From positions 1 through 64,000 of the forward strand of contig OMTF01000012.1 of assembly GCA_900313925.1 (NCBI GenBank): a DNA stretch of 64,000 nucleotides. The letters run 5' to 3'. This DNA is from an uncultured Eubacteriales bacterium (GTDB taxonomy: Bacteria > Bacillota > Clostridia > Oscillospirales > Oscillospiraceae). The translations under genes were made by a program, and so were the position numbers. The notes below the pieces were generated by a model. The model had not been told where the DNA came from and searched no databases. It worked only from the letters and a program-made list of their open reading frames with translations. Shown here piece by piece: positions 1,804 to 42,231 of the stretch (position 1 is the stretch's first letter; every line of letters starts with the position of its first letter).

Positions 1804-2949
1804 TCAATATTCGTCAAGAAAATTATGTTTAATACCATCTTTCTTATATGAAAGCACTGTGTCCAGGTTTATATTTTCTACACTCTTGAATATATTAGCT
1901 TCAATATAGGGGTTTTTCTTTTTTAGTTCAGCGATCAGCTTCTTTGTTTCCAATCTTTTCGACGATGTTGTTCCATCGGCATGGCAGGTAGTGCATGTAT
2001 CAGTAAAATGGCAGGCGCATTGAAGAAAATGAAGATCGTAATATTTTGCCCACGACTTTATATCATCCTCTCTAATAAAATACATCGGACGAATTAATTC
2101 CATTTTTTCAAAATTACTACTATGGAGTTTTGGCATCATCGTCTGGGTTTGACCTCCATACAGCATCCCCATCATGATCGTTTCTATGACATCATCATAA
2201 TGATGACCCAAAGCAATCTTATTGCAGCCAAGCTCTTTGGCCTTGTTGTAAAGATGCCCTCGTCTCATCCTGGCACAGATGTAGCAGGGATTTTTATCTA
2301 TTTTATCGACTGCGTCGAAGATCCTGGTATCAAATACGCTGATCGGGATCCCGAGTCTCTCCGCGTTGCTTTCGATAAGTTTTCTATTTTCGGGACTGTA
2401 ACCCGGATCCATGACCAGAAATGTCAGATCAAACGATACCTTATTATGGCGTTTAATTTCCTGAAACAGCTTTGCCATCAACATGGAATCTTTACCGCCG
2501 GATATGCATATGGCAATGTGGTCTCCCTCACTGATCAGCTGATAAGTTTTACAGGCTCTGGCAAAAGGTGAAAATAACTGTTTATGATATTTATGCTGAA
2601 TATCCTTTTCTATCTTTTCTTTTTCTGCATCATTTGCTTTCTTAGAAGAGATATAGCTGATGTAACCTCTGTATCCGTCTTTTAACGAAAAGCAATTTCT
2701 TAAAGAAAGGAAAGAAAGATCGCTCAATTGCTGAGTTTTTCTTCCAATCTGGCAATAAAAGATTAGTGTCTTATCTATGGGTATGGTATCGACTTTTTCC
2801 AGTTTATTGTTTTGTAAATCCTCCAGTTTAATATGTATCGCATCAGGTATCATCCCATAGGAAACAAGCACATCATCTCTGATATCAATAAGTCTGTACG
2901 TATTGTCCGGAAGTTTGTATACTTCTTCAATCGTTATTTCCTGCATCAT
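1804..2949 (-). CDS. Rhodanese domain fused to TtcA-like PP-loop ATPase
   Basis: The protein has 381 residues and two parts. Residues about 1-105 form a rhodanese fold with a candidate persulfide Cys66 in YCQIGRKTQ. The rest is an adenine-nucleotide alpha-hydrolase of the TtcA class, with ATP loop SGGKDS at 150-155, the Cys pair CYICARMRRG at 222-225, ALGHHYDD, and a Cys-rich segment near the C-terminus. TtcA 2-thiolates C32 of tRNA using an Fe-S cluster. A fused rhodanese would supply the sulfur. It is the last gene of the cysteine operon and overlaps the upstream gene by four bases. The tRNA target is inferred; another sulfur transfer is possible. Confidence 0.82.
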   Translation of the reverse strand: MMQEITIEEVYKLPDNTYRLIDIRDDVLVSYGMIPDAIHIKLEDLQNNKLEKVDTIPIDKTLIFYCQIGRKTQQLSDLSFLSLRNCFSLKDGYRGYISYISSKKANDAEKEKIEKDIQHKYHKQLFSPFARACKTYQLISEGDHIAICISGGKDSMLMAKLFQEIKRHNKVSFDLTFLVMDPGYSPENRKLIESNAERLGIPISVFDTRIFDAVDKIDKNPCYICARMRRGHLYNKAKELGCNKIALGHHYDDVIETIMMGMLYGGQTQTMMPKLHSSNFEKMELIRPMYFIREDDIKSWAKYYDLHFLQCACHFTDTCTTCHADGTTSSKRLETKKLIAELKKKNPYIEANIFKSVENINLDTVLSYKKDGIKHNFLDEY

Positions 2950-3629
2950 TCACCTATAATCTGCGGAATCAGTATCTTTCCGTTTCCGTTACAGAAACGA
3001 ACCGTGGTGTCTACGATTCTGTCAGCAGTCTCATACAGCAAATCATCAGATGTCTTTTCGTTTCCCTGGACGATATAGAAGATGTTCTTTGAATCCTCTG
3101 TCACCTTATCTTTTTCAACCTGCCTGATCTCTAACCAGCAGAGAATTTCGTTGTTGTCATCAATATAAGAATACTCTCCGGGTTTTACCGGCTTATCTTC
3201 TTCAGAACCGAGAGGTCTGAATTTCTCTGTTCCATCTGTCAATCGTAATGTGATGTTTCCACTCAATTTGTCGATATCATGTGCTCCCAGAGCCAGTTTT
3301 GATTCCATGGAAATAATATTATAGATATCAACTGCTTTATTGATTTCAAATAATCCCTGCTTTTTTATAAGCAGCTTTATCAGATTTTCCGAAGCGGGAA
3401 TATTCTTTCTTCTGGGAACATTTACTTTTTCATGCAGCGTATAGAATGCTTCTAATACCTCGTCCTGTTTTACATCAAAATCTTTATATTTCTCTAAAAG
3501 AACACCGACTTCATCTTTCCTCCATTGAAGATATTCATCGCTGATCGTTTTGTTGTCGATGCCATCGATTTCGACGCCAATGATCTTTACACCTAAATCA
3601 AGTACTTTCTGCTCAACATAAAATTCCAT
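2946..3629 (-). CDS. B3/4-domain protein (PheRS editing-domain homologue)
   Basis: The protein has 227 residues. The central and C-terminal parts match the free-standing B3/4 family: VNVPRRKNIPASENLIKLL at about 92-110, then SMESKLALGAHDIDKLSGNI, and a C-terminal segment FYIVQGNEKTSDDLLYETAD. B3/4 is the editing domain of bacterial phenylalanyl-tRNA synthetase. Free-standing copies are usually annotated without function, but could hydrolyse mischarged tRNA. The gene sits between the thioredoxin-like lipoprotein and the TtcA-like gene and overlaps the latter by four bases, which implies translational coupling. Its presence in a cysteine operon suggests a role tied to amino acid or tRNA quality, which is inference. 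Confidence 0.78.
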   Translation of the reverse strand: MEFYVEQKVLDLGVKIIGVEIDGIDNKTISDEYLQWRKDEVGVLLEKYKDFDVKQDEVLEAFYTLHEKVNVPRRKNIPASENLIKLLIKKQGLFEINKAVDIYNIISMESKLALGAHDIDKLSGNITLRLTDGTEKFRPLGSEEDKPVKPGEYSYIDDNNEILCWLEIRQVEKDKVTEDSKNIFYIVQGNEKTSDDLLYETADRIVDTTVRFCNGNGKILIPQIIGE

Positions 3630-3651
3630 TATTACTAATCATCTCCTGTCT

Positions 3652-4386
3652 CTATTTTAGTGCGAAGAACTCTTCAAAGATCGCTTCTTCATCTTTCAAT
3701 ATTTCTTCGCTTAAATTCTGATATGAATCACTTTGTTTGTCAGAGATCCCGGTGACCAGTGATCTTATTTCTCCGTCTTTGATATAGACAAAATTCGGAG
3801 CATAAATCCTTTTTTCACCAACTTCTATCGTTTGTCCGTCAACGTTCAAGGTATAATCACTGAGATAATCCTTCCAGTAATCTAAAAGCTGATAATATGC
3901 ATCAGAGGCAACAGTGTCCATAACAAGGGATCCATCTTCATAGACGAATTTATCTCTCAATATTTCGTTCCCCTCGTCATCCCAGATCTTAAGATAATAG
4001 ATTTTATCAACAGCATTATCTTTGGCCACTTCAATCGCCTTTTCGATCACGCTTCTGCACCACGGACATTTTTCATCACCAATATAGACATAAAACTTTT
4101 CGTTGTTCTCAATCATTCTGACAATATCTTCAGGGCTCATCTTGACCAAAGCATGATCTTCAGGTAAATGCACGGTTCTATATTCCTTACCGGAAGAATT
4201 TGTTTTCCCATTGTAGTATTCATACGCTTCTTTGATCGTCATATTTGATACTCCTGCTTCAATAGTATTTTCACACTCAGAAAAAATGTCACATCCCGAT
4301 ATGGTTTTCTCTTCTTCCTTATTGTTGACTGAGCACCCACACAAAACAAATAATATCGCAGCAGAACAAATCAACCGTTTATTCAT
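3652..4386 (-). CDS. Thioredoxin-like lipoprotein
   Basis: The start is taken at the ATG at 4386, since only there does the protein begin with a typical lipoprotein signal: MNKR, a hydrophobic core, then LCGC with the lipidated Cys at residue 18. A longer upstream frame overlaps the preceding gene. The mature part holds a thioredoxin-like CPWC at 107-110 within FYVYIGDEKCPWCRSVIEKA. It is thus likely an extracytoplasmic thiol-disulfide protein anchored to the membrane. It overlaps the ECF S-component gene by eight bases. In this operon it may reduce an extracellular disulfide such as cystine, which is inference from context. Confidence 0.8.
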   Translation of the reverse strand: MNKRLICSAAILFVLCGCSVNNKEEEKTISGCDIFSECENTIEAGVSNMTIKEAYEYYNGKTNSSGKEYRTVHLPEDHALVKMSPEDIVRMIENNEKFYVYIGDEKCPWCRSVIEKAIEVAKDNAVDKIYYLKIWDDEGNEILRDKFVYEDGSLVMDTVASDAYYQLLDYWKDYLSDYTLNVDGQTIEVGEKRIYAPNFVYIKDGEIRSLVTGISDKQSDSYQNLSEEILKDEEAIFEEFFALK

Positions 4387-36483: not shown

Positions 36484-37521
36484 TTATTCCTGGGAATCCT
36501 GCGCCCTATCGCCATAGCCGTTCGGATTCTTCTTTTGCCAGTTCCAGGAATCCCGGCACATATCATCCAGATCGTATTTTGCCTTCCAGCCCAGAATGGC
36601 AGCGGATTTGTCCGGAGAGGCATATGTAACCGGAAGGTCCCCGGCTCTTCGCGCTCCAATTTTATAAGGAATCTTTACGCCGGTTACCCGTTCAAAGCTC
36701 TTTACGATGTCAAGGACACTGTAGCCTTGCCCGGTTCCGAGATTGAAGACGCTTTCTCCGCGGTGCTCCAGCATGTAGCGGATGGCGGCAACATGCCCGG
36801 AAGCTAGGTCGCATACGTGAATGTAATCCCGTATGCCGGTTCCATCCGGTGTGTCATAGTCGTCGCCGAACACGTTGAGATACGGAAGCCGTCCGATGGC
36901 AACCTGGGAAATATACGGCATGAGGTTGTTGGGAATGCCGCGGGGATCCTCGCCGATAAGGCCCGAAGGGTGCGCTCCGATCGGATTAAAATACCGAAGC
37001 AGAAGAACGGACCAGTCCGAGTCCGCCTTCGCCATATCCCGCAGAATCTGCTCGGACATGTATTTTGTCCACCCGTACGGGTTCGTGCAGCCGCCGGTGA
37101 TGGAGTCCTCCCGCAAAGGCATGGGATCGGTTCCGGTGTAAACCGTTGCAGAGGAAGAGAAAATGATATTCTTGCAGCCGTGATCCCGCATGGCTTCACA
37201 CAGGCGGACCGTGCAGAATAGGTTATTATCATAATATTCAAGAGGCATCTGAACACTTTCCCCTACTGCCTTCAAGCCTGCAAAGTGTATGGCACAGGAG
37301 ATGGCATGCCTTTCAAAAATGCGGTCCAGCGCCGCCCGGTTACGAACATCTACTTCGTAGAAAGCGACTTTTTTCCCGGTAATCTGCTCAATGCGGTCTA
37401 CCGCCTTAGCACTGCTGTTGACAAGGTTATCGATAATCACGACGTCATAGCCACTGTTTAAAAGCTCAACGCAGGTGTGGCTTCCGATAAAGCCTGCGCC
37501 GCCGGTCACCAATACGGTCAT
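36484..37521 (-). CDS. galE: UDP-glucose 4-epimerase
   Basis: Interconverts UDP-glucose and UDP-galactose. The start is the ATG at 37521 (MTVLVTGGAGFIGSH, the Rossmann motif). The catalytic SSSATVY and YGWTKYMSE with Tyr-x-x-x-Lys, and RYFNPIGAHPSGLIGEDP, are hallmarks. The length of 345 is normal. It has no clear ribosome binding site because a small mobile element ends only 20 bases upstream, splitting it from the nucleotidyltransferase gene. Its expression may therefore be altered. Confidence 0.95.
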   Translation of the reverse strand: MTVLVTGGAGFIGSHTCVELLNSGYDVVIIDNLVNSSAKAVDRIEQITGKKVAFYEVDVRNRAALDRIFERHAISCAIHFAGLKAVGESVQMPLEYYDNNLFCTVRLCEAMRDHGCKNIIFSSSATVYTGTDPMPLREDSITGGCTNPYGWTKYMSEQILRDMAKADSDWSVLLLRYFNPIGAHPSGLIGEDPRGIPNNLMPYISQVAIGRLPYLNVFGDDYDTPDGTGIRDYIHVCDLASGHVAAIRYMLEHRGESVFNLGTGQGYSVLDIVKSFERVTGVKIPYKIGARRAGDLPVTYASPDKSAAILGWKAKYDLDDMCRDSWNWQKKNPNGYGDRAQDSQE

Positions 37522-37570
37522 AATCTTTTTGGCGAGGAAACCCACAGGTTTGCCTGTGGGAGGAATCGCC

Positions 37571-37858
37571 TTACACCACCCTTCTTAATTCAGTAATCAT
37601 TTTCCTGCGCACTTCAAGGAGTCTGAGATTCTTGTATCCTGCCGATGCATTGATTTTCTTTCCGTCAAGAAGTCTCAGATCCGTTCTTCCGGTTGCACGC
37701 CGTCCGAAAATGAAACATATCCGCCCTCTCCATTTTACAAACCTGAATCCATTCACTTCATAGAGTGCCTGATTCCTTTTCCGGTATCCGCCCCTCAGGT
37801 TTATAGCCTTGTGGATCTGACGGTTATGACATCTTACTTTTTTCTGCTGACACTCCAG
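37571..37858 (-). pseudogene. iscB: IscB nuclease, C-terminal remnant
   Basis: The frame opens after a TAG at 37861-37859 and runs 95 codons to the stop at 37571. It contains VRCHNRQIHKA, GGYRKRNQALYEVNGFR, then CFIFGRRATGRTDLRLLDG and KINASAGYKNLRLLE, the pattern of the C-terminal target-adjacent-motif-interacting region of IscB. The RuvC and HNH catalytic parts are missing. It cannot cut DNA on its own. Confidence 0.75.
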
Positions 37859-37861
37859 CTA

Positions 37862-38118
37862 CTTGACAGTTCCTCCTAAGAGCGGCAAATGTACCATCGC
37901 CAATGTTAATGGAAGGCTTGTTGCACGCAGCACGGTACCTATACCGCAGAACTTTTTATTCACACACCTTATTGCTGACAGACGTGGCACTACATCCGCA
38001 GGGAACTATGTATATACCGAGGTATACATTCTTCCTTATCGCAGCCAGGAAAGGCTTAGGCTACTCACTCCGGGCTGCTAAGCAACCTCACAGGCTTGTT
38101 TGTGGGTACCAGTGAGGC
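37862..38118 (-). ncRNA. Omega-RNA (HEARO RNA)-like structured RNA
   Basis: It lies immediately 5' of the iscB tail, where IscB guide RNAs are encoded. Visible helices include TGTATA CCTCGGTA TATACA (about 38010-38030), CTTTCCTGGC.. GGAAG, and CCTTCCATT.. GGCGATGG. The text GTGAGTAGCCTAAGC matches my memory of HEARO RNAs. A covariance search is needed to confirm it. If intact, it could be used by an IscB supplied in trans. Confidence 0.65.
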
Positions 38119-38157
38119 AATATTCCGCATATTCTGCGGGGAATCCGGGCTGCGAGG

Positions 38158-39072
38158 CTATTCGTCCCAAAGCCCTTCCGGGTAGAGCCCCTGTCTCTTC
38201 ATGCGGGCAATCGCATCCCGGACGCTCTGCAGATCGGATTTATAGGTGACGCCGTACCAGGTTTCCGAACAGGGAAGAACCTCCACGCTTCCGGTGCCGG
38301 ACTGCAAAACGCGGCTTACGACGGACGGGAGGAAATATTCCGCTTTCAGCGGATTTTCCCGCAGGGCTTCATTTAGGAAAAGGGGGAAGCCGCTTTCAAT
38401 CGCGGGCAGGATTTCGGCCCCGAAGCCCCAGAAATTCATGCTGACCGGCGTATCCCCGGGAACCCGGGTCCAGCTTTTCCCGCCGTCTTCCGTATAAGCG
38501 GCGTCCTCCCCGGCAGGAACAATCTGCGTATGTTCTGTGACGCGCACGAGCTTTCCATCCTGAACGACGCATAAACCACGGGCAACGGAGCCGTTCTCCG
38601 TTACGGTATTCCGGATCCGATAACCGACCATGGCGTGACAGGTTTCCGGCCGGTCCGCCCGGAGAAAAGTGAAGATGGATTGATAGGCGGAAGGGCCGTA
38701 ATAGTCATCGGAATTGATAACGGCGAAAGGTCCGTCCAGCACTTTCCGGCAGCTGTATATGGCGTGCGCTGTGCCCCAGGGCTTTACGCGTCCGGCGGGA
38801 ACGGTGTATCCTTCCGGCAGATCGGCAAGCCGCTGCGGAACATACGCAACGTCAAAATAGGATTCCATGCGACGCCCGATGCGCTCCGCAAATGTCTTTT
38901 GAAGGGCTTCCGTCACAATGAATACGACGCGCCGGAATCCTGCCTGATGGGCGTCATAAAGGGAAAAATCCATAATGGCGTGCCCCTGGGGATCGACCGC
39001 TTCGATCTGCTTGAGACCGCCGAAGCGGCTCCCCATACCGGCAGCCATCACGACTAAGGTTGGATTTCGCAT
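38158..39072 (-). CDS. Sugar-phosphate nucleotidyltransferase family protein
   Basis: Start ATG at 39072 after AAAGGAAAGCT. The N-terminal VVMAAGMGSRFGGLKQIEAV is a nucleotidyltransferase loop, DDYYG holds the metal Asp residues after FAVINS, and the later NFWGF stretch follows. The 304 residues resemble the NTP_transferase proteins of Clostridia that lack a fused kinase. It precedes galE, now separated by the IscB-type element. The sugar substrate is not determinable. Confidence 0.85.
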   Translation of the reverse strand: MRNPTLVVMAAGMGSRFGGLKQIEAVDPQGHAIMDFSLYDAHQAGFRRVVFIVTEALQKTFAERIGRRMESYFDVAYVPQRLADLPEGYTVPAGRVKPWGTAHAIYSCRKVLDGPFAVINSDDYYGPSAYQSIFTFLRADRPETCHAMVGYRIRNTVTENGSVARGLCVVQDGKLVRVTEHTQIVPAGEDAAYTEDGGKSWTRVPGDTPVSMNFWGFGAEILPAIESGFPLFLNEALRENPLKAEYFLPSVVSRVLQSGTGSVEVLPCSETWYGVTYKSDLQSVRDAIARMKRQGLYPEGLWDE

Positions 39073-40154: not shown

Positions 40155-40364
40155 GCCGAGGCCACCCTTCCGCATCCCAGACGCGAACCAGCCGCATCGG
40201 GAAAATTTTTCACGTGCACTATAGCAAAGCAGATGCGAAAATGCAACCGTAGCAGCCTGCGATCTGTACGAAAAAAATTCCAATACGGAAAAAATTTTGA
40301 GTAGATTTTCCATTGACGGCACGGTAAATCCTGATAAAATACACCCATAAATGAATACGGAAAT

Positions 40365-40641
40365 GCATGGATGGAGACAAGTAGCGCAACTGCTTTCTTA
40401 CAGAGAGCCGGCGGCGGTGGAAAACCGGCAGGGGAATCTGCGTGAATAACACTCCGGAGCAGCGACCTGAAAGATGACACCCAGTAGGGAAGACGCGAAG
40501 CGTGGCGTTAGAACGTGAGGGCTTGATGGAGCTCGAAAAAGAGACCATGGAACATGGTAATTTAGGTGGCACCGCGGATGGCAGCTATTCGTCCTAAGAA
40601 ATTGGGAAAGAGCTGCAATGATTATCCGGAGGTGTTTTTTT
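40365..40641 (+). promoter_or_regulatory. T-box leader, asparagine specific, controlling asnB
   Basis: Stem I has GGAG/CTCC at its base and the AGTA loop motif. The specifier codon AAC at 40448-40450 (Asn) is followed by A. The T-box AGGTGGCACCGCGG lies at 40564-40577; its UGGC (40567-40570) would pair with a GCCA tRNA end, as expected for tRNA-Asn with discriminator G. A competing stem pairs CGGAT (40575-40579) and GCAGCT with AGCTGC and ATCCG (40624-40628), which runs into the ribosome binding site and seven T. Uncharged tRNA-Asn should therefore turn on asnB. Confidence 0.95.
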
Positions 40642-42231
40642 ATGTGTTCCATTATGGGATTTACGACCCAGGCGCTGACTGAGGAAGAGATTCGGCCGTA
40701 TTTTGACCGTACCAAATCCAGAGGTCCGGACAAAACACGCATCGAGAAGACAGGGTCCGGCTGGCTGTGCTTCCACCGGCTTGCCATCATGGATTTAAGC
40801 TGTACCGGAATGCAGCCGTTTCACAGGGACGGCGACATGTGCGTATGCAATGGGGAACTGTATCTTTTCCGCCCTCTTCGCGGTGAAATCGCGAAGGAAG
40901 TCCCGCTGCAAAGCGAATGCGACTGCGAAATTATTCTGCCGCTGTACCGGAAGTACGGACTGGATATGTTTCGAAAACTTGATGCGGAGTTTGCCATGAT
41001 CCTCTACGATGCGCAGAAAGACGCCTATATCGCGGCGCGGGATCCGCTCGGCATCCGTCCGCTGTTTTACGGACGGATGCGGAAGGACGGCTCCATGGTA
41101 TTTGCGAGCGAAGCGAAAAACCTGGTGGGGCTTGTGGATCGAATCCTGCCCTTTCCTCCCGGATGCTACTGGGCGGACGGCACGTTCACCCGCTACGCGG
41201 ATCTGACAACCGTCCGGCCGGAAGAATATATCCGGGACGATGTGGACACAATCTGCCGTAAGATAAGGGAACTTCTAATCCTGGGCATTGACAAGCGGCT
41301 TGACGCTGATGCGCCGCTGGGATTTCTTCTCTCCGGCGGTTTGGATTCCAGCCTGGTCTGCGCAGTTTCCGCGAAGCTCCTGGGACGCCATGTACGGACT
41401 TTCGCCATCGGCATGGACAAGGATGCCATTGATCTTAAGTATGCGCGGGAAGCGGCCGAGTATATCGGGGCGGAACATACGGAGATTTTTATGACGCGGC
41501 AGCAGGTTCTGGACAGTCTGGAGGAGGTCATTGCCGCTTTGGGCACATGGGACATCACCACCATACGGGCAAGCATGGGCATGTACCTTTGCTGCAAGGC
41601 GATCCACGAACAAACGGATGTGCGCGTCCTGCTGACCGGGGAAATCTCGGATGAGCTTTTCGGCTATAAATACACGGACTTTGCCCCTTCCGCGGAGGAA
41701 TTCCAGCGGGAAGCGAAGAAACGTGTTGACGAGCTGTATATGTATGATGTGCTGCGGGCAGATCGTTGCATTTCCGCAAACTCCATCGAGGCCCGTGTGC
41801 CTTTCGGCGATCTGGCGTTTGTAAACTATGTGATGCGCATTGATCCGGAGCGCAAAATGAACCGCTACGGCATCGGAAAGTATCTTCTCCGTCACGCTTT
41901 TGAAAAGGATGGACTTCTGCCGGAAAATATTCTGTGGCGGCAGAAAGCCGCGTTTTCCGACGCAGTCGGACACTCCATGGTGGATGATCTGAAAGCTTAC
42001 GCAGAGCGCCTGTATACGGAGGAAGAGTTCCAGCGGAAGCGCCGGCAGTATGCATTTCGAACGCCGTTTACCAAGGAAAGCCTTCTCTACCGCGAAATTT
42101 TCGAGAAGTATTACCCGGGGCAGGCGGGGATGATCAAGGACTACTGGATGCCGAACCGTTCCTGGAAAGGCTGCGACGTAGATGATCCTTCCGCTCGTGT
42201 GCTGCCAAACTACGGGGCTTCCGGCATGTAG
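40642..42231 (+). CDS. asnB: Asparagine synthase (glutamine-hydrolysing)
   Basis: Start ATG at 40642, so the N-terminal glutaminase nucleophile is Cys2 (MCSIMGFTT). The domain continues through CNGELYLF and AAEFAMILYD-like stretches. The synthetase half has the pyrophosphate loop LLSGGLDSSLV and LTGEISDELFGY. The 529 residues match the AsnB type that turns aspartate, ATP and glutamine into asparagine. Control by an upstream Asn T-box supports the assignment. Confidence 0.97.
   Translation: MCSIMGFTTQALTEEEIRPYFDRTKSRGPDKTRIEKTGSGWLCFHRLAIMDLSCTGMQPFHRDGDMCVCNGELYLFRPLRGEIAKEVPLQSECDCEIILPLYRKYGLDMFRKLDAEFAMILYDAQKDAYIAARDPLGIRPLFYGRMRKDGSMVFASEAKNLVGLVDRILPFPPGCYWADGTFTRYADLTTVRPEEYIRDDVDTICRKIRELLILGIDKRLDADAPLGFLLSGGLDSSLVCAVSAKLLGRHVRTFAIGMDKDAIDLKYAREAAEYIGAEHTEIFMTRQQVLDSLEEVIAALGTWDITTIRASMGMYLCCKAIHEQTDVRVLLTGEISDELFGYKYTDFAPSAEEFQREAKKRVDELYMYDVLRADRCISANSIEARVPFGDLAFVNYVMRIDPERKMNRYGIGKYLLRHAFEKDGLLPENILWRQKAAFSDAVGHSMVDDLKAYAERLYTEEEFQRKRRQYAFRTPFTKESLLYREIFEKYYPGQAGMIKDYWMPNRSWKGCDVDDPSARVLPNYGASGM

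Follow-up and report, generated by a model that had tools for sequence, protein, structure and literature searches.

An internally deleted IscB/HEARO element, probably a relic, immediately upstream of the galE start codon

An IscB element between a nucleotidyltransferase gene and galE

The minus strand of the window (the whole 64,000-nucleotide stretch of DNA analysed here) carries a nucleotidyltransferase gene (38158-39063), a 595-bp element downstream of it (37522-38116) and an intact reading frame (36484-37521, starting MTVLVTGGAGFIG) that we take, by sequence resemblance, to be galE, encoding UDP-glucose 4-epimerase. A DNA search found galE only once in the genome. The left or RNA-side end of the element lies at 38116, and its right end, at 37522, immediately precedes the galE ATG; both limits rest on alignment with intact relatives and on the empty site described below. 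On the plus strand of the same window, a T-box leader (RF00230, 114.6 bits, 40359-40599) lies 5' of an amidotransferase-like gene (40618-42231).

Read along the minus strand, the element consists of a degenerate match to the HEARO or omega-RNA scaffold (37885-38116), a 26-base remnant that holds the deletion junction (37859-37884, delimited by translation and by alignment with two relatives, L007 and L010), an IscB C-terminal tail (37571-37858, made up of 95 codons at 37574-37858 and a TAA at 37571-37573), a right-end hairpin (37531-37570) and a 9-nt linker (37522-37530) leading to the galE start codon. The right-end hairpin, with an 8-bp inner stem, 5-nt internal loops and a 5-bp outer stem, has the same form in relatives, and all 13 of its pairs (8 inner, 5 outer) are intact. 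The ATGA that follows (37518-37521) contains the galE start codon and is also the TAM-side flank of the insertion. At the opposite end, the 16-nt guide is expected to be the host DNA adjoining the element (38117-38132), placed from the start of the HEARO match, the guide of IscB elements lying outside the left end.

Across its conserved parts the element is 68-73% identical in DNA to six relatives (L031, L036, L033, L037, L032 and L007). Relatives start with CTCACTAATACCC, and at their other end a hairpin leads through a short linker to ATGA. The element likewise carries a subterminal hairpin at either end and a fixed flank, as is typical of IS200/IS605-type elements. Compared with intact relatives (L006, L007, L031 and others), it has lost about 1 kb of iscB, including the 5' end of the gene; aligned with the DNA of L007, the gap falls after the RNA and ahead of the C-terminal tail. 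This confirms an internally deleted IscB/HEARO element whose identity and position are near certain. An earlier note, made from the sequence alone, had described an RNA region followed by 95 codons of the IscB C-terminus on this strand, with the nuclease body missing and hairpins at both ends. The first two points were borne out, with the ends shifting slightly to 37522 and 38116; of the two hairpins, the right one is perfect and the left one, which lies inside the RNA, is partly broken.

Both further genomes of the genus, G041 and G130, keep the two genes in this order without the insertion, and comparison with them defined the ends of the element. In each, only about a dozen bases separate the genes: the nucleotidyltransferase stop codon is followed by an AGGAGG and, a few bases on, by the ATGA that opens galE. 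This layout places the insertion exactly after the ribosome-binding site and ahead of the start codon. Thus the claims of the earlier note that the insertion separates the two genes and displaces the galE leader both hold. The 41 bases of host sequence to the left of the element contain no good Shine-Dalgarno sequence (-3.5 kcal/mol), which leaves the loss of the old signal undated; it may have decayed or may never have been present.

Loss of the nuclease body and probable decay of the guide RNA

The tail is 54-72% identical to IscB C-termini from nine loci on Lachnospiraceae or Clostridia contigs, seven of which have open frames of 409-431 codons while the other two are interrupted by the contig end; across intact relatives, the frames span 409-438 codons. 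Against a profile built from seven IscBs, the tail covers only columns 318-411 of 412 (E 1.3e-33), and the RuvC and HNH domains of an IscB nuclease are absent. Three codons are missing internally relative to relatives. The dN to relatives is about 0.17-0.37, with dS saturated against nearly all of them, at which point selection on the tail is not judgeable. A tail open over 95 codons with such values could mean a recent deletion and little decay so far, a point against the relic reading.

An open frame and a codon-sized internal gap are also what would be seen if the tail, which corresponds to the TAM-interacting domain of IscB, had been retained as a small DNA-binding protein or repressor. 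Against this, an in-frame stop in the remnant (37859-37861) severs the tail from anything upstream, no in-frame ATG, GTG or TTG occurs before tail residue 36, and the GTG found there (37756) would yield only 61 codons. The tail alone also had no match in Pfam, NCBIfam or PDB sequences, and we regard such a protein as very improbable.

The HEARO match extends over the whole of RF02033 (model positions 1-211 of 211; 38.6 bits, E 2.2e-6 over 701 bases). As the curated gathering score of this family is 83 bits, a standard scan at that level misses the RNA, which is recognised instead by homology over the entire model beside an IscB tail. By comparison, 74 of 80 viral relatives have a HEARO at or above the gathering score (83.7-162.6 bits), and apart from two fragments every matching relative scores higher than the window. 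These fragments align end to end over about 120-130 bases: one (L029, G336:C20:448768-448889, 35.1 bits) resembles a shortened 5' HEARO without IscB, and the other (L028, G138:C60:60703-60830, 29.5 bits) lies just 5' of an IscB-like frame of 507 codons that has a different RNA.

Damage to the RNA was assessed against a consensus fold of 60 pairs drawn up with ten relatives of the same sub-group. Nine of the 60 pairs are broken in the window, as compared with 0-3 in each of the ten relatives (16 of 600 overall). Similarly, 18 of the 125 columns that are invariant in the ten relatives are altered in the window, where relatives taken singly show 0-13 changes in 107-120 columns. All six outer-stem pairs are intact, and the conserved 3' block AACATTGGCGATGGTAC is present.

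These observations bear on the proposal of the earlier note that the element keeps an RNA able to direct an IscB supplied elsewhere. A HEARO match and similar ends in relatives, whose absence would have spoken against the reading of the note, were both found, and the RNA match proved to be full-length though below threshold; an intact guide RNA and a partner IscB in the genome were not. If a phage or a neighbour supplied an IscB that could still use the omega-RNA in trans, with or without the tail, the element could persist as a functional derivative. The end-to-end alignment, the standing outer stem and the retained 3' block make some residual function possible and count against a relic, and related IscBs do occur in viral contigs. 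On the other hand, the score and the broken pairs and altered columns set this RNA apart from its relatives, and the 12 TAM-proximal nucleotides of the guide have just one further exact match in the genome (59244-59255), which is followed by GGCC and not by NTGA. Overall, we consider it unlikely that the RNA still functions with a foreign IscB; decay of the element is likely, and in our judgement what stands in front of galE is quite probably a dead IscB element with an internal deletion.

The genome itself provides no second copy. In its 1.97 Mb, searches with the DNA, the HEARO model and the IscB profile each recovered the element once, and neither a second HEARO nor a second IscB was found with the latter two, in a 65-contig draft assembly from which a repeated iscB might be missing. 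Because the element is single, a MITE-like family with several copies sharing their ends, as the earlier note had inferred, is not supported, and the full iscB copies that it had suggested looking for in this genome did not appear. No RRXRR domain scored above the cut-off in the genome; one match on contig C44 (14.3 bits, below the cut-off) was treated as noise since the control search was positive in 6 of 14 genomes. The element contains no transposase. One Y1 (IS200-type) transposase gene, for a protein of 143 aa and the only such gene found, is present elsewhere in the genome (L030, C28:3668-4030), and inspection of its surroundings by eye established no link to the ends of the element.

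Relatives and their association with start codons

A DNA search of 400 genomes of the family with the element returned, beyond itself, just two short matches, one of which (L005, in G336) lies inside a real IscB element. At the protein level, IscB matches with an E-value of at most 1e-20 turned up in 31 genomes out of 398 from the phylum. A precedent for the window is in G612 (L149), where an internally deleted copy retains a HEARO of 114.2 bits, the first ~60 residues of IscB, the C-terminal tail and a right-end hairpin that lies immediately 5' of an ATG opening an aminotransferase-like frame of 463 codons. About 2 kb away, another HEARO accompanies a fuller IscB interrupted by one stop; both the deleted copy (L149:435-1142) and the fuller copy (2544-4005) end before ATGA. 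This precedent indicates that internal deletions sparing both ends do arise, and the deletion in the window is by itself not novel. The proximity in G612 of an above-threshold HEARO in a deleted copy to a fuller, stop-containing IscB also speaks for the possibility of a deleted element working in trans.

To place the galE insertion among its relatives, we used 80 viral IscB loci, 74 of which have a HEARO start, and scored 70 unique left flanks independently of the right end. An exact Shine-Dalgarno match of at least 6 nt at start-codon spacing was present in 16 of 70 left flanks (23%), as compared with 1.6% of random positions and 3.3% of positions before ATGA in the same contigs; for matches of at least 5 nt the figures were 26 of 70, 4.9% and 8.8%, respectively. 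The right-end hairpin motif was recognised in 50 of the 77 viral loci that have an IscB end (48 unique), so that right-end counts leave out the 27 loci without the motif by the pattern used, which came from a list drawn up after inspecting the sequences. The first ATG past this motif, taken as the start in each case, was ATGA in 38 of 48 unique right ends (control 17%), the same flank as in the window, and 25 of these 38 open frames of at least 50 codons (24% for control ATGA sites). The two ends are associated: of the 27 loci whose right-end ATG opens such a frame, 16 have a left-flank match of at least 5 nt, as against 2 of the 16 others (Fisher p 0.004), although related loci are not independent and both the binomial and Fisher values therefore overstate certainty.

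Several of the proteins downstream match known families from their first residues, including an aminotransferase V (L032, residues 5-355 on 2-371 of 371), phrog_850 (L036, residues 4-500 on 3-476 of 476) and ResIII (L096, residues 2-153 on 3-164). Overall, of 10 downstream proteins scanned against each library, 8 matched a PHROG and 6 a Pfam family, some of these matches not being N-terminal. Among 8 plasmid records examined of 52 that bear IscB, five (L141, L142, L143, L147 and L148) have an annotated same-strand gene that begins 0-59 bases past iscB; in the remaining three, the next gene lies 117 bases (L145) or 335 bases (L144) past iscB or is on the opposite strand (L146).

Two of the viral loci have unusual surroundings. 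In one (L043:1804-2457, from IMGVR_UViG_3300032007_000052), three 36-nt CRISPR-like repeats with a period of 66 (at 2119, 2185 and 2251) adjoin the HEARO scaffold of IscB, as though a CRISPR array had replaced the guide part, and a truncated HEARO with the first codons of an iscB lies just upstream. In the other (L034:1488-2178), a ROOL RNA (303.8 bits) and a tRNA stand immediately upstream of the IscB element.

The TAM of the related nickase IsrB in experiments is NTGA or NTG, according to the accessible part of its description (PMC9581776), and these are also shapes of bacterial start codons. The coincidence would let elements land between a Shine-Dalgarno sequence and its ATG. Insertion at start codons is not discussed in that part of the IsrB paper, which does say that the PLMP domain resembles the N-terminal domain of IF-3, and titles and abstract openings of the openly accessible literature yielded no description of such insertion for IscB. 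The enrichment at start codons may arise largely from selection against harmful insertions in dense genomes, in which case active targeting is unnecessary.

The right end as a possible leader for galE

In many relatives, AAAGGAG or AAAGGAGG lies 5' of the right-end hairpin and is followed, past the hairpin, by a short linker and ATG(A). A Shine-Dalgarno match of at least 6 nt occurs in the 80 bases preceding the last 30 in 30 of 47 loci, as compared with 10% of random 80-base stretches. Its core adjoins the hairpin; once the latter is looped out, the core lies 2-16 nt from the ATG, with a median of 10 (41 of 47 loci, with no control set). Of the six loci that have no such core, three (L040, L041 and L058) carry a Shine-Dalgarno sequence in the linker. 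A plain portable ribosome-binding site within the linker was rejected for most loci, with matches of at least 5 nt in just 6 of 47, and this scarcity is the reason that a split form is proposed instead. The same order of Shine-Dalgarno sequence, hairpin and ATG recurs in plasmid loci from Bacillota, Fusobacteriota and gammaproteobacteria.

As the AAAGGAG stretch is part of iscB, its conservation could reflect the protein. Copies fall in one iscB frame in 25 of 41 cases and in the others in 12 and 4. The Arg codon of the motif is AGG in 28 of 48 sequences versus 13.1% in the rest of the genes, a count in which the codon was picked by pattern and is wrong in some rows; this excess argues for selection at the nucleotide level. 

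The window has the same layout of a Shine-Dalgarno-like stretch, a hairpin and a start codon at short looped spacing. The stretch, at the end of the tail and just 5' of the hairpin (37574-37585), pairs with the anti-Shine-Dalgarno sequence at -10.9 kcal/mol, an energy that 1.5% of 25-nt stretches drawn at random from the window attain. The native galE signals give -10.3 kcal/mol in G130 and -12.9 kcal/mol in G041, and the 25 nt adjoining the galE start of the window -3.7 kcal/mol. (This calculation took the galE start as 37522 and not 37521, which sets positions off by one and leaves the pre-hairpin energies unchanged.) The looped spacing to the ATG is about 12 nt, at the long end of the known range. 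In the usual geometry of IS200/IS605 ends, taking the ATGA side as the target, a transposase guide would be expected elsewhere than in this stretch.

In our best reading, an IscB transposon inserted between the galE ribosome-binding site and start codon, where the ATGA of the gene served as the flank on the TAM side, and looping at the right-end hairpin could bring the Shine-Dalgarno-like stretch near the galE ATG. The chances that the right end now acts as the galE translation leader appear about even. Such a role may be why this end has stayed intact, though the difference in broken pairs between the right-end hairpin (0 of 13) and the RNA (9 of 60) is not significant (p 0.35). More broadly, and tentatively, since we would put it somewhat short of even, IscB transposons may be start-codon parasites that carry their own split ribosome-binding site for the host gene, with a guide RNA that often spells the Shine-Dalgarno region of that gene and a right-end linker of 7-10 nt; in the window, the right end would then have outlived the nuclease and become a leader.

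It is possible, if rather doubtful, that the element is instead merely disruptive, with galE poorly translated or reinitiated from the tail and the right end under no selection. The right end is alike in relatives anyway, so its presence here requires no selection, and the whole insertion may be recent in the lineage. An intact galE with no second copy is harder to reconcile with disruption, as is an unbroken right-end hairpin beside a damaged RNA.

The copy in the window, most likely a fossil and ordinary in kind, has a clear empty site in other genomes of its genus and pointed the way to the start-codon pattern in its relatives. Should the split ribosome-binding site prove real, a guide-RNA transposon could enter essential, tightly packed genes, such as phage genes or galE, without silencing them; the NTGA TAM would have a reason; and IscB insertions before genes should not be read as knock-outs.

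Several known systems resemble the galE locus. Like IscB/HEARO (OMEGA) elements, it has an RNA 5' of the protein gene, a guide side outside the left end, hairpin ends and a TAM-side ATGA, whereas the nuclease body is gone, the RNA falls below the Rfam gathering score and the element is single. The deleted element of G612 shares the RNA, the C-terminal tail, the lack of a nuclease body and the position directly before a start codon, and differs in keeping the N-terminal 60 codons, an above-threshold HEARO and a second HEARO and IscB nearby. The NTGA or NTG TAM reported for the OMEGA nickase IsrB (PMC9581776) fits the ATGA and ATGG at the right ends seen here, and IsrB differs from IscB in having no HNH domain. 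Finally, phage T4 genes 25 and 38 have split ribosome-binding sites in which structure cuts the spacing from 22 to 5 nt and from 27 to 11 nt, respectively (PMC3014915). The window has the same succession of Shine-Dalgarno sequence, hairpin and start codon; here, however, a mobile element's end forms the structure, whose effect on translation is a prediction.
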